Shown here: positions 51,389 through 57,208 of the stretch, piece by piece
Position numbering within the stretch: the stretch's first letter is position 1
Layout of the letters: every line of letters starts with the position of its first letter
From: Rhodanobacter panaciterrae
GTDB taxonomy: Bacteria; Pseudomonadota; Gammaproteobacteria; Xanthomonadales; Rhodanobacteraceae
DNA length: 64,000 nucleotides
Direction: 5' to 3'
NCBI RefSeq assembly: GCF_014651895.1
Contig: NZ_BMXT01000002.1
Location: 558,001 to 622,000 of the forward strand
Notes under the pieces: generated by a model
The model's input: the letters and a program-made list of their open reading frames with translations, nothing else
What the model was told of the DNA's origin: nothing
Database searches by the model: none
Translations under genes and position numbers: made by a program

Positions 51389-51418
51389 TTGACCGCAGTG
51401 CAACATTGCGCCTAAGGT
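51389..51418 (+). promoter_or_regulatory. Promoter of the threonine operon (leaderless type)
   Basis: TTGACC (51389-51394), an 18-base spacer and TAAGGT (51413-51418). Only seven bases separate the -10 from the leader ATG at 51426, placing the likely transcription start at the ATG itself. AAGG inside the -10 could act as a Shine-Dalgarno only if transcription began further upstream. Confidence 0.6.
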
Positions 51419-51425
51419 CAACCCC

Positions 51426-51578
51426 ATGTCGCCACTTTCCACACCAGCACGCAAGCACTTCGCCTCGGCTTTCGCCGAGCGTGCGCCAGTGCCGGCAGGC
51501 GTCAACGTCCGTTCCATCGCCACCACGATTACGACTACCACCACGACTCGGTCGGGGTGGGTGTCCGTGCGCGGCTAG
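51426..51578 (+). CDS. thrL: Threonine operon leader peptide
   Basis: A 50-codon ORF just upstream of the homoserine dehydrogenase gene. Its C-terminal part encodes ATTITTTTTTRSG: eight Thr and one Ile in nine codons, as in E. coli thrL (ISTTITTTITITT). The run uses ACG, ACT and ATT along with ACC, which slows a ribosome when charged tRNA-Thr or tRNA-Ile is scarce. Shorter versions from the GTG at codon 22 are possible. The N-terminal 30 residues are not repetitive. It signals attenuation control of threonine synthesis. Confidence 0.88.
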   Translation: MSPLSTPARKHFASAFAERAPVPAGVNVRSIATTITTTTTTRSGWVSVRG

Positions 51579-51594
51579 GTTCTTCACTACGCAA

Positions 51595-51621
51595 CGGCCC
51601 CGCCCTCGATGAGGCGGGCCG
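51595..51621 (+). terminator. Candidate attenuator hairpin of the threonine operon
   Basis: A GC-rich hairpin (CGGCCCCGCC with GGCGGGCCG, one bulged C) 17 bases after the leader stop. There is no T tract after it, so it may act by Rho or translational attenuation. The G-rich end of thrL could compete for the CCCCGCCC arm. Confidence 0.5.
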
Positions 51622-51680
51622 GCGTACTCCCAGACACAAGCCGATCCGCCAGCGAGCACGGGCCTCACCAGGAGGTCATC

Positions 51681-52835
51681 GTGAACGTCTGTGCATCCGA
51701 ACTTGCCGAACACCCGCAGCAATTCCTGCATCCATTGCCGGTGTCGGTAAAGACGACTCGCCGGCGCGTACTGGCAGTCGGCGTGATCGGCCCCGGCCGG
51801 GTCGGCAGCGCCCTGCTGGAACAGTTGCGGGCCGCACAACCGCGGTTGGTTCGCGACAACGGACTGGAACTGCGGCTGTGCGGCGTCGTGGCCAGCAAGC
51901 GCATGTGGCTGGACTGCGACGACGCCGAACTCAACGATCGCCACGACGGCGCGCAGATCTGGCGGCCGAATGATCTGGACGCATTTGCCGAACACGTGCG
52001 CGGCAATGACGGTCGGCACGCCTTGCTGATCGACTGCAGCGCGAACGACGATGTGGCCGCGCACTATCCGCGCTGGCTGGCAGCCGGCATCCATGTGGTG
52101 ACGCCGAACAAACTGGCCGGCAGCGGACCGTTGCCGCGCTGGCAGGCGATCCGCGCGGCCTGCGCCAGCGGCGCGCGCTTCCGTTACGAGGCCACCGTGT
52201 GCGCCGGCCTGCCAGTGGTGCAGACACTGCGCGACCTGCTCGATACCGGCGACGAGCTGCTCGCGGTGGAAGGCATGTTCTCCGGCACGTTGGCCTGGCT
52301 GTGCAATCGCCATGACGGCCAGCAGCCGTTCTCGGCGCTGGTGCTCGAGGCACACGCGCTGGGCTATACCGAGCCCGATCCGCGCGACGATCTGTCCGGC
52401 CTCGACGTGGCGCGCAAGCTGGTGATCCTGGCGCGCGAGGCGGGCTGGCCACTGTCGCTGGAAGACGTCGTGGTGGAGAGTCTGGTGCCATCCTCGCTGG
52501 CAGCCTTGCCACTCGAAGCCTGCATGCAGCGATTGCACGAGTTAGATGCGCTGATGTCCGCTCGACTGGCCGAGGCGCAGGCGCTCGGTGGCGTGCTGCG
52601 TTACGTCGCCAGTCTGGACCGCCACGGTCGCGCCCGCGTCAAACTGGTCGTGCTGCCGGCGAAGCATCCATTCGCGCACACCCAACTAACCGACAACATC
52701 GTGCAGTTCACAACCCGCCGCTACTGCGATAATCCGTTGTCGGTGCAAGGCCCCGGCGCCGGTCCCGAAGTGACCGCCGCCGGTGTGTTCACCGATCTGC
52801 TGCGTATCGCCGAGTCGCTGGAGGCACGCGCATGA
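51681..52835 (+). CDS. hom: Homoserine dehydrogenase (ThrA C-terminal type, no aspartokinase)
   Basis: A 384-residue NAD(P)-dependent enzyme converting aspartate semialdehyde to homoserine. It aligns to the C-terminal half of ThrA/Met[16 protein letters not shown] cofactor motif, [30 protein letters not shown] (catalytic Asp/Lys) and [13 protein letters not shown] at the end. The N-terminal aspartokinase and ACT domains are missing. The GTG start follows AGGAGG by five bases. Four-base overlap (ATGA) with thrB. Aspartokinase must be encoded elsewhere. Confidence 0.93.
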
Positions 52836-53827
52836 ACTCTTCCTTGCTGCTGGAACCTGCCATGGCTTCGCCGCGTCGCCCCCAACTTCCGCAGGTCGCC
52901 TGCGCCTTCGCACCCGCCAGTGTCGGCAATGTGGGCGTGGGTTTCGACCTGCTCGGCCACAGCGTGGCCGGTGCCGGCGATCGCGCCGAAGTGCGCCGCA
53001 TCGACGAGCCGGTGGTGCGCATTGCTGCAATCCGCGGCTGCGTCACCGAACTGCCCATTGATCCACGTCAGAACACTGCCGGCATGGCGCTGCTGTCGCT
53101 GCGCAAGGCGCTCGGCCTGCAGCACGGATTCGAACTGGCGCTGCACAAAGGCATTGCGCTGGGTTCGGGCATGGGTGGCTCGGCGGCATCGTGCGTGGCG
53201 GCGCTGGTCGCCGCGAATGCGTTGCTGGCGCAGCCGTTGCCGCGTGAATCGCTGTACGGCTTTGCACTGGATGGCGAGGCGGTGGCCAGCGGCAGCCGGC
53301 ATGGCGACAATCTCGGCTCGATGCTACTCGGCGGCTTGGTGCTGGCCACCCACGAGCATCTGTTGCGCATCGAGGTGCCGGCCACGTGGCACTGCGCGCT
53401 GGTGCATCCGCATGTGGTGCTGGAGACGCGCAAGGCACGTGCCGCGCTGGCCGGCCATTACGAACTCGGCGAGTTCGTCGCGCAAAGCACCAACCTTGCG
53501 CTGGTGCTGGCCGGCTGCTACCGCGGTGATGCAGCGCTGGTTCGCGAAGGACTGAAGGACGTGCTGGTGGAACCGCGCCGCGCGCCGTTGATCCCGAACT
53601 TCGCGCGGGTGAAGCAGGCTGCGCTGGATCATCACGCACTGGGTTCCAGCATCTCCGGCGCAGGCCCCAGCGTGTTCGGCTGGTACGACAATCGCGCCGA
53701 TGCCGAAGCCGCGTCCGTCGCGATGCAGGCCGCCTTTGCCGAGGCCGGACTGGACAGCGATGCGTGGGTGTCACCGATCGATGGGCCAGCCGCCGTATTG
53801 ATTCCCTCGCTTGAGGCCGAGGCATGA
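52832..53827 (+). CDS. thrB: Homoserine kinase
   Basis: A 331-residue GHMP kinase that phosphorylates homoserine. The ATP loop is [18 protein letters not shown] (about residues 108-125), preceded by [16 protein letters not shown]. The late GHMP motif is [13 protein letters not shown]. It overlaps hom and thrC by four bases each (ATGA), so the three genes are translationally coupled. An in-frame Met at codon 11 is an alternative start, but the ATGA overlap favours this one. Confidence 0.95.
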
Positions 53828-55146
53828 GTGTCGTCGAGCCATTGCGCTACCACAGTACGCGCAGCGCCGAACCGACTGTGCCGATCAGCCAGGCCATTGC
53901 CGCCGGACTCGCGCCGGACGGCGGGCTGTATGTGCCCGAGGCATTGCCATCGATCGATCCGGCCGCATTCGGTCCGCATGGCTCGCTCGCCGACACCGCC
54001 ACCACCTTGCTGGCACCGTTCTTCGCGGGCGATCCGCTGGCCGACGAACTGCCCGCGATCTGCGCCGAGGCGTTCACGTTCGACGCGCCGCTGCGCGCAC
54101 TTCCGGCACATCCAGGCACACTGATGCTGGAGCTCTTCCACGGCCCCACCTCGGCGTTCAAGGATTTCGGCGCACGTTTCCTCGCCGCCTGCCTGCGCCG
54201 CCTGCCGCGCGCCGATGCACGGTCGTTGACGATCCTGGTTGCCACCTCGGGCGACACGGGCGCAGCAGTCGCCGCGGCGTTCCATCGCCAGCCGAACGTG
54301 CGCGTAGTGATCCTGTATCCCGATGGACTGGTGTCGCCGCGTCAGGCGCATCAACTCGGCTGCTTCGGCGACAACGTCAGCGCGCTTCGCGTAGCCGGCC
54401 GCTTCGACGATTGCCAGCGCATGGTCAAGGCAGCACTCAACGATGCGTCGCTGCAGGCGCAGTTGCCGCTCTCTTCGGCCAACAGCATCAGCCTCGGCCG
54501 CTTGCTGCCGCAGATGAGCTACTACGCGCATGCCGCATTGGGCTGGTGGCGCGAGCACGGCACGCCGCTGAACTTCATCGTGCCCACCGGCAATCTGGGC
54601 AACGCACTGGCCTGCCTGTGGGTGCGCGAGCTGGGCCTGCCGATCGGCAGTGTGCGACTGGCGTGCAACGCCAACACCACCCTTCCCGACTATTTCGCCG
54701 GCGCCGATTACGCGCCGCGTGAAGCAGTCGCCACGCTGGCGAATGCGATGGACGTGGGCGCACCGAGCAACTTCGAACGTCTGCGCTGGACCTACCCCGA
54801 CGAGAGTCGATTGCGCGGCTTGCTAATGGCGGCCAGCGTCGACGATGCCGCGATCTGCCAGACCATTGCTCATCATGCGCGTGAACATGGTGAGGTGTTC
54901 TGCCCGCACACCGCCACCGCGATGCACTTGCTCGACCGGCTACGCGCGGATGGCGACGACGCGCCATGGGCGGTGGTCGCCACCGCGCATCCGGCCAAGT
55001 TCGAGAGCGTCGTCGAGCCGCTGATCGGCCAACCGCTTGCGGTGCCCGCGGCTCTCGCTGCGATGCTGACGCGTCCGGCCTCGACCGAGCAGCTGGCCGC
55101 CGATGACGGCGCGCTACGGCAATGGCTGCTGCAAACACGGTTCTGA
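53824..55146 (+). CDS. thrC: Threonine synthase
   Basis: A 440-residue PLP enzyme that converts O-phosphohomoserine to threonine. The PLP lysine is K113 in [13 protein letters not shown]. The phosphate-binding loop is [29 protein letters not shown] and the C-terminal [14 protein letters not shown] match E. coli-type ThrC (short form without the SAM-binding domain). Last gene of the threonine operon. Confidence 0.96.
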
Positions 55147-55160
55147 TCGATCCGAAACAC

Positions 55161-55190
55161 GCTGCAACCGGCTCTGCAGCTGTATTTTTT
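55161..55190 (+). terminator. Candidate terminator of the threonine operon
   Basis: GCTGC and GCAGC (5 bp) with a 10-base loop, followed by TGTATTTTTT. The sequence can also pair GCAACCGG with CCGGTTGC downstream (55164-55198), a mutually exclusive structure. Confidence 0.5.
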
Positions 55191-55257
55191 CCGGTTGCCC
55201 GACTATCGCAGACCGCAGCATATGCGCGCGCGTATGGAAGGCAAAGCATGACCTCCG

Positions 55258-55291
55258 TTTGCATATGGACGGATAGCCGTCCATATGCGAA
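55258..55291. repeat. Perfect palindromic hairpin upstream of the leu promoter
   Basis: GCATATGGACGG-ATAG-CCGTCCATATGC, a 12-bp stem extendable to 15 with one G-T pair. An 18-bp near-palindrome CATATGCGCGCGCGTATG lies at 55219-55236. Both carry CATATG-like half-sites and lie 40-100 bp upstream of the leu -35, so a regulator site is plausible. Confidence 0.6.
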
Positions 55292-55306
55292 TCGTGGCCA
55301 TAGAAC

Positions 55307-55357
55307 TTCTTTTCATAAAGAAAACGGTTGACAGCCTGCAAAGGCATGGTTTACGTT
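55307..55357 (+). promoter_or_regulatory. Promoter of the branched-chain operon with AT-rich UP-like region
   Basis: TTCTTT-TCAT-AAAGAA dyad and A/T tract (55307-55325), TTGACA (55328-55333), an 18-base spacer and TACGTT (55352-55357). Seven bases then lead to the leader ATG at 55365, the same geometry as the threonine promoter. Confidence 0.65.
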
Positions 55358-55364
55358 CGATCAC

Positions 55365-55502
55365 ATGTCGCAGCGCAACAGCCACCGCCGCATCGCCGAA
55401 AACAATCGTCTCGTGACGATTGCCGGCCTGCTGCAGGTTCGCGGCACGCTCCTTCTTGCCCTCGTACTCGTACTCCTTATTACCAACGGAGGTGCGGGCT
55501 GA
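55365..55502 (+). CDS. leuL: Branched-chain operon leader peptide
   Basis: A 45-codon ORF ending TLLLALVLVLLITNGGAG. The control stretch has seven Leu, two Val and one Ile in eleven codons and uses CTC, CTT, GTA and ATT, while coding genes here favour CTG, GTG and ATC. It is a classic attenuator peptide sensing all three branched-chain amino acids. No Shine-Dalgarno precedes the ATG. A terminator hairpin follows 46 bases after the stop. Confidence 0.88.
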   Translation: MSQRNSHRRIAENNRLVTIAGLLQVRGTLLLALVLVLLITNGGAG

Positions 55503-55548: not shown

Positions 55549-55580
55549 AACCCCGCACCGGCAACGGCGCGGGGTTTTTT
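55549..55580 (+). terminator. Attenuator terminator of the branched-chain operon
   Basis: AACCCCGC-A-CCG-GCAA-CGG-C-GCGGGGTT followed by TTTT (six T in all, 55575-55580). A textbook Rho-independent terminator. CAGGT (55514-55518) and ACCTG (55531-55535) form a smaller hairpin between the leader stop and the terminator. Confidence 0.88.

Positions 55581-55612: not shown

Positions 55613-57208
<1,596 letters not shown>

Follow-up and report, generated by a model that had tools for sequence, protein, structure and literature searches.

The thr and leu leader regions of R. panaciterrae

The 64,000-nucleotide window analyzed here (positions 558,001 to 622,000 of contig NZ_BMXT01000002.1 of Rhodanobacter panaciterrae; all coordinates are those of the window) contains the threonine operon thrABC followed by leuA, and each of these is preceded by a short open reading frame (ORF), thrL and leuL respectively, with all six on the forward strand. 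The predicted leaderless thrL (51426–51578) has 50 codons plus a stop and a Thr-rich sensor, ATTITTTTTT (ATTITTTTTTR with the following residue), and the likewise predicted leaderless leuL (55365–55502) has 45 codons plus a stop and the sensor LLLALVLVLL (extending to LLLALVLVLLI). Both therefore have the arrangement expected of an amino-acid attenuator, a run of codons for the amino acid produced, within a short ORF, with thrL ahead of thrABC and leuL ahead of leuA. The downstream genes code for homoserine dehydrogenase (thrA, 51681–52835; its family match covers the dehydrogenase part of the bifunctional model and no more), homoserine kinase (thrB, 52832–53827), threonine synthase (thrC, 53824–55146) and 2-isopropylmalate synthase (leuA, 55613–57208).

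The two leaders share the same promoter geometry. The thrL promoter has a −35 hexamer TTGACC (51389–51394) and a −10 hexamer TAAGGT (51413–51418) in the arrangement TTGACC-N18-TAAGGT-N7-ATG, with the ATG at 51426; at leuL, a −35 TTGACA (55328–55333) and a −10 TACGTT (55352–55357) are arranged as TTGACA-N18-TACGTT-N7-ATG, with the ATG at 55365. A preliminary description of the region had given both promoters and their spacings exactly in this form. The pattern TTGACN{17,19}TANNNTN{6,8}ATG occurs twice in the window where 0.04 matches are expected, with two or more in 0 of 100 shuffles, and five times in the 3.46-Mb genome (two of these being thrL and leuL), compared with once for the reversed pattern. 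A chance origin of the shared geometry was rejected on the shuffles and on this genome-wide rarity. The other three genomic matches are upstream of genes that read like TetR/MarR-type regulators.

From the geometry, together with the conservation, complementarity and modelled switching described below, we infer that thrL and leuL are, with high probability, attenuators of the ribosome-mediated type, with RNA that begins at the A of the ATG or 1–2 bases from it; the predicted transcription start is read from promoter geometry only, and leaderless initiation and regulation are likewise predicted.

Conservation of the leaders in related genomes

Rhodanobacter and Dyella are among the closest named relatives of the genome by leuA search, and its family membership is presumptive. 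A first survey of 60 family loci (30 thr and 30 leu), using a filter that required a −35 resembling TTGACA, a TA...T and a start close by, identified a leader at 29 of the 30 thr loci and all 30 leu loci, with spacings of 17–18 and 6–8 nt; in the remaining thr leader (L030) TTGAC is 36 nt from the start and TANNNT is absent. The preliminary description had proposed a lineage-wide design and named poor conservation of the −10 to ATG spacing as grounds for abandoning it; where a TANNNT is present, that spacing is conserved at 6–8 nt in the window's family, and 103 leaders have a near-constant −35 to ATG distance, although the spacing is not strictly 18 + 7 but 17–18 and 6–8 (59 of 60 loci).

The wider surveys show the same constancy. 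TTGAC lies 35–39 nt before the thr leader start in 56/56 window-family genomes examined that have a close thrA homologue, and in 17/17 genomes examined in a second family (17 of whose 24 genomes were covered). The distance is 35 nt in three, 36 in 31, 37 in 30, 38 in eight and 39 in one of these 73 thr leaders, and 36 nt in eight and 37 in 22 of the 30 leu loci; this range is partly built in, since the start chosen was the in-frame start nearest a TTGAC at 33–40 nt. A histogram of all ATG–TTGAC pairs 12–89 nt apart in the same kind of ORF (one genome being counted twice) is free of this bias, and places 69 of 115 pairs from Thr-rich ORFs and 30 of 33 from Leu-rich ORFs at 35–39 nt. ATG is the start codon in 102 of the 103 leaders. 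The distance is unchanged in short thr leaders such as L153, L154, L156, L157 and L167, which have only 22–25 amino acids and a Thr run that begins at codon 5–6.

Both leaders are present together in ten named loci (L186, L187, L190, L192, L193, L195, L197, L199, L204 and L213), from the genera Rhodanobacter, Dyella and Luteibacter plus one metagenome-assembled genome. In Lysobacter, all four loci have an Ile/Leu/Val-rich leader with the same geometry and a similar N-terminus (MTQR.NH), about 7 kb upstream of leuA. No Thr leader was seen in four genomes of three other families (L182–L185). The thrA survey omits seven of 59 genomes, which have only a distant paralogue or a thrA fragment; L148 (masked, and the same genome as L135) and L164 (the same genome as L127) were dropped before counting, as were the rows L133 and L136–L145, whose flanks are too short and whose 11 genomes are all represented by longer regions. 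L009 and L022 were missed by the wider leader filter and were seen in the first 60-locus survey.

RNA regions and modelled switching

In the mechanism that we propose, the promoter would set +1 at the leader ATG, and a ribosome would have to load on the bare 5′ end as the RNA leaves RNA polymerase (by 70S initiation, in the proposal of the preliminary description), and would then translate up to the Thr or Leu codons. A stall at those codons would leave region 2 of the RNA free to pair with region 3 (the ON direction), and a ribosome at the stop codon would cover region 2 so that the 3:4 hairpin forms (OFF). The leu 3:4 hairpin is a strong intrinsic terminator; that of thr has no T tract, and a hairpin containing the thrA Shine-Dalgarno (SD) sequence follows it.

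In thr, region 2 (GGGGTGGG, 51554–51561) directly follows the Thr codons and has region 3 (CGGCCCCGCCCTC, 51595–51607) as its pairing partner, region 4 (51611–51622) closes the 3:4 hairpin with no T tract after it, and region 5 (GGGCCTC, 51660–51666) pairs with the thrA SD AGGAGG (region 6, 51670–51675) or, alternatively, with region 3. The leuL reading frame ends GGA GGT GCG GGC TGA, and the antiterminator arm within these GGAG-to-stop codons, region 2 (GGTGCGGG, 55491–55498), is complementary to region 3 (CCCCGCACC, 55551–55559), the 5′ arm of the terminator; region 4 and the T6 tract of this intrinsic terminator occupy 55568–55580. A G-run followed by at least five T residues is found at 35 of the 36 leu loci examined. 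The thr leaders have no T-tract terminator, the stretch from region 4 to thrA having a longest T run of 1–3 in all 52 aligned leaders (52 of 61, close duplicates and four divergent leaders, L154, L161, L177 and L178, having been left out).

In a co-transcriptional model in which the RNA is cut after region 3 (35 leu and 43 thr leaders were given, of which one and three, respectively, failed the region-3 pattern), 33 of 34 leu and 37 of 40 thr leaders show antiterminator pairing that depends on where the ribosome stands. Leu region 3 pairs with the bases ahead of the stop codon at a mean of 0.75–0.80 with the ribosome placed from four codons before the last Leu codon to that codon itself, 0.63 at eight codons before, 0.00 with the ribosome at the stop codon and 0.36 with no ribosome. 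For thr the corresponding pairing is 0.71–0.81 for stalls between eight and two codons ahead of the last Thr codon, 0.39 at the last Thr codon, 0.05 at the stop codon and 0.44 with no ribosome. A species-swap test on the 52 thr sequences shows that the 2:3, 3:4 and 3:5 pairings beat the swaps (0/300 as good), as does 5:6 (4/300), and detects no covariation for 4:5, 2:4 or 2:5. Within groups, 3:5 and 5:6 hold in the unfused-thrA family genomes, 2:3 and 3:4 in the fused and remaining family genomes, and only 3:4 in the second family. At least three of four bases of the thrA SD are paired in the 5:6 hairpin in 49 of 52 leaders.

Several results weigh against switching as drawn. Taken by themselves, neither the unfused family group nor the second family gives a significant thr 2:3 swap test, and the leu 2:3 test is negative. 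Equilibrium folding with a ribosome on the leader shows no switch of thr SD access and shifts leu terminator formation by over 0.1 in just four of 35 leaders, with the terminator favored at nearly every ribosome position. When region 4 is withheld in the model the thr SD is not opened, and the thr 3:5 pairing, which would free it, is if anything likelier with the ribosome at the stop codon. As the thr 3:4 hairpin lacks a T tract and is followed by the SD hairpin, the thr output is probably exerted at translation or by another kind of termination, possibly through Rho.

Predicted position of the transcription start

The hexamer 7 nt upstream of the ATG is read here as a −10 element rather than as an SD. 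Among thr leaders of the window's family with an unfused thrA, TANNNT lies 17–18 nt from the −35 in 41 of 42, and these 41 hexamers take 16 forms with a variable middle, TAAGGT accounting for eight and the other 33 including TAACGT, TATGGT, TAGTGT and TATCTT. The middle of the hexamer is only partly free in leu, as T1, A2, G4 and T6 are invariant in 17 leaders. The leaders combine an AUG start with the lack of an SD, the latter by degree: the energy of pairing to the anti-SD is −3.8 for thrL and −2.7 for leuL, against a range of −5.6 to −11.5 among seven ordinary window genes, and it is −4 or stronger for 14 of 73 thr and seven of 30 leu leaders versus 16 of 30 crudely chosen leuA starts.

If a promoter further upstream had gone undetected, the transcript would have an ordinary 5′ leader and the TAAGGT before thrL would be an SD; TAAGG does resemble one, at 7 nt from the ATG; its presence in eight of the 41 thr hexamers and the constant G at the fourth position in leu fit this too. 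We nonetheless regard it as very unlikely, and rejected TAAGGT as an SD on the hexamer variation in relatives, given that 33 of the 41 differ while TTGAC stays 17–18 nt upstream (TA...T itself being required by the filter), that leuL has no TAAGG-like core, and that the anti-SD energy is weak at both leaders. A different account moves the true leader start further along the frame, to a codon that has a ribosome-binding site of its own, in which case translation would not be leaderless. Long leaders do contain other in-frame ATG or GTG codons, and codons 13–27 of leuL lack conservation at the amino acid level; the diversity there (n = 24 sequences) is 0.30, 0.36 and 0.34 at the three codon positions, and this similarity indicates that the stretch is not kept as peptide, in contrast to the conserved sensor and antiterminator in codons 28–45 (0.09, 0.06 and 0.14). 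Codons 1–12 are intermediate, at 0.24, 0.18 and 0.18, with no excess at third positions. The short thr leaders L153, L154, L156 and L157, with the Thr run from codon 5–6, leave little room for a later start and keep the distance, and ATG is the start in 102 of 103; a later start was rejected on these short leaders and has hardly any probability in our estimation. Lastly, transcription may start 1–4 nt upstream of the ATG to give a very short leader. The start site used after a −10 can shift by a few bases, and relatives have −10 to ATG spacings of 6 to 8. This account overlaps with the preferred one, from which it is inseparable by sequence; an SD would not fit in so short a leader either. We consider it unlikely, though far from negligible.

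Other observations count against a start at the ATG itself. The most serious is that TANNNT is missing at the expected place in all 14 fused-thrA and all 17 second-family thr leaders (0/31), the hexamers there reading TTCTCT, TCCACT and similar, and the promoter reading is weaker in these groups as a result, even with the −35 to ATG distance kept; here the promoter argument is at its weakest, in relatives and not in the window. Mean SD pairing of the leu leaders (−3.39) is only slightly weaker than that of the crudely chosen leuA starts (−3.87). A pyrimidine is present at −1 in 102 of 103 leaders, and was dropped as evidence for a leaderless start because it does not discriminate, six of the seven ordinary window genes also having C there. 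A generic promoter and terminator scan with strict hexamer and loop rules listed neither promoter nor the leu terminator, and the partly built-in distance range belongs here as well. A start at the ATG, or 1–2 bases from it, remains the reading that we favor.

The 5′ end of leuL has a further feature. The sequence ATG-NCG-CAG-CGC-AAC-AGC-CAC (55365–55385 in the window) is largely conserved among relatives as nucleotides although the residue at codon 2 changes, the first base of that codon being T, C or A with the CG kept in 30 of the 30 shown. As the bases are kept while the codon varies, this suggests, as a lead only, a constraint that may act on the RNA 5′ end rather than on the peptide.

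In 14 of 52 family genomes (e.g. L147, L149 and L153–L157), thrA is part of an open frame of more than 800 amino acids, which appears to be a fusion to aspartokinase; TANNNT is missing from the thrL promoter in 14 of 14 fused-thrA genomes versus one of 42 unfused, and eight of the 14 fused leaders are of 22–27 amino acids. Between thrC and the leuL promoter, the window contains a perfect inverted repeat (55261–55288), GCATATGGACGG-ATAG-CCGTCCATATGC, with 12-bp arms and no T run after it, possibly an operator or the end of the thr operon. Genes that read as ilvD- and ilvC-like lie downstream of the leu cluster, and no ILV-rich short ORF was seen in the window from 61300 on.

Leaders beyond the order and at other operons

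Leu-rich short ORFs with TTGAC 35–39 nt before the ATG are found at 15 of 57 further leuA loci, Lysobacter included (L208, L225, L226, L229, L230, L232–L236, L239, L243, L246, L250 and L251); L207, L212 and L241 were left out for want of upstream DNA. The record titles of the 15 are Nevskiales, Chromatiales, Woeseiaceae, Proteobacteria, Gammaproteobacteria, Planctomycetales, Rubripirellula, Stieleria, Roseiconus, Planctomycetaceae and Phycisphaerales. Of 41 Leu-rich pairs at the further loci, 18 fall in the two 4-nt bins covering 32–39 nt and seven in the bin 56–59, and a control of Leu-poor ORFs in the same stretches gives 17 pairs with no peak and two at 32–39. A hairpin and T tract follow the leader in the six of the 15 loci inspected, and also in L250. 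A second group of Leu-rich leaders (L215, L219, L223, L228 and L237) has TTGAC about 52–60 nt before the ATG, which would correspond to an ordinary leader of roughly 17–22 nt or to another promoter. In L226 and L232–L236 the leu leader is 1.2–1.3 kb upstream of leuA, with space for one gene between, and the sequence after the leader reads like ilvC in L233 and L235.

The preliminary description had also called for comparison with trp, his and ilv leaders, and the family loci examined showed no his or trp leader of this kind: upstream of hisG (30 loci of 39 matches) there is one His-rich short ORF only, in L076 and with a GTG start; the regions upstream of trpE (28 loci) contain no short ORF that combines two near Trp codons with TTGAC at 33–40 nt; and none with this promoter geometry lies within 1.5 kb upstream of ilvB (30 loci), where the filter required TANNNT and promoters of the fused-thrA type would escape it. 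We speculate, with more doubt than confidence, that a leaderless start is the standard and possibly ancestral form of leucine attenuation in much of the Gammaproteobacteria and in the Planctomycetes, extending in Xanthomonadales to threonine, that selection holds +1 at the AUG for the earliest loading of the first ribosome, and that the SD-led attenuators of Escherichia coli are the exception.

Comparison with known attenuators

Leaderless attenuators are already documented in Streptomyces lividans, Corynebacterium diphtheriae and Sinorhizobium meliloti, so the kind itself is known. The peptides leuL1, leuL2, trpL1, trpL2, ilvL, metL and thrL of S. lividans are leaderless attenuator peptides with the start mapped at the start codon (PMC8079986), and the C. 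diphtheriae ilvB leader is likewise a leaderless attenuator (PMC5784534). The mapped start at the start codon, the several leaders per genome in S. lividans, and the lack of a T tract after the hairpin of some leaders, as in thr here, are points of likeness; the differences are that these species are Actinobacteria, that the S. lividans Thr peptide precedes thrS (here thrABC), and that those peptides have 12–29 amino acids, compared with 22 to about 53 for the gammaproteobacterial thr and leu leaders. Sinorhizobium trpL, which the preliminary description had offered as its example, similarly has an RNA beginning at the leader ATG, with translation shown by Ribo-seq (PMC7298713, PMC10117765), and is a trp attenuator of an alphaproteobacterium whose peptide has a trans role; nothing here suggests such a role. 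The interpretation in the preliminary description stands in part, its lineage-wide conservation being borne out and its statement of prior art proving too narrow in view of the several mapped S. lividans peptides.

The LEU element of Actinobacteria (PMC1262725) also has a Leu-run peptide before leuA and pairing to an SD, the latter as in the thr leader here, and differs in that the Leu codons themselves pair with the SD, whereas here a separate region 5 does so, in thr; the words "leaderless" and "promoter" are absent from the text of that paper. In Corynebacterium glutamicum, leader peptides were detected at trpE, leuA, ilvB and aroF, with "leaderless" not stated in the part of the source seen. 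We found no paper on leaderless attenuators in Xanthomonadales among openly licensed papers. Rfam has no family at gathering score over either window leader, and Thr_leader (RF00506) has no match in the genome, the window included. As far as the literature searches reach, three points are new: the arrangement is conserved at two operons in two families of Gammaproteobacteria, it also occurs in Planctomycetes, and in thr it is combined with an SD hairpin.

For attenuation to work, the leader must already carry a ribosome by the time the polymerase passes the hairpins, and a promoter fixed for an AUG-first RNA would bring the ribosome in at the earliest moment. Conservation over many genera and very different leader lengths makes this question of coupling directly testable.

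The thr and leu attenuators of E. coli control the same operons; their short upstream ORFs likewise contain Thr or Leu codons, and they follow the same four-region logic. They differ in that TTGAC lies 79 nt before the ATG of thrL and 63 nt before that of leuL, which makes their leaders ordinary ones. If our interpretation is correct, the textbook thr and leu attenuators start differently in E. coli and in a large related order.

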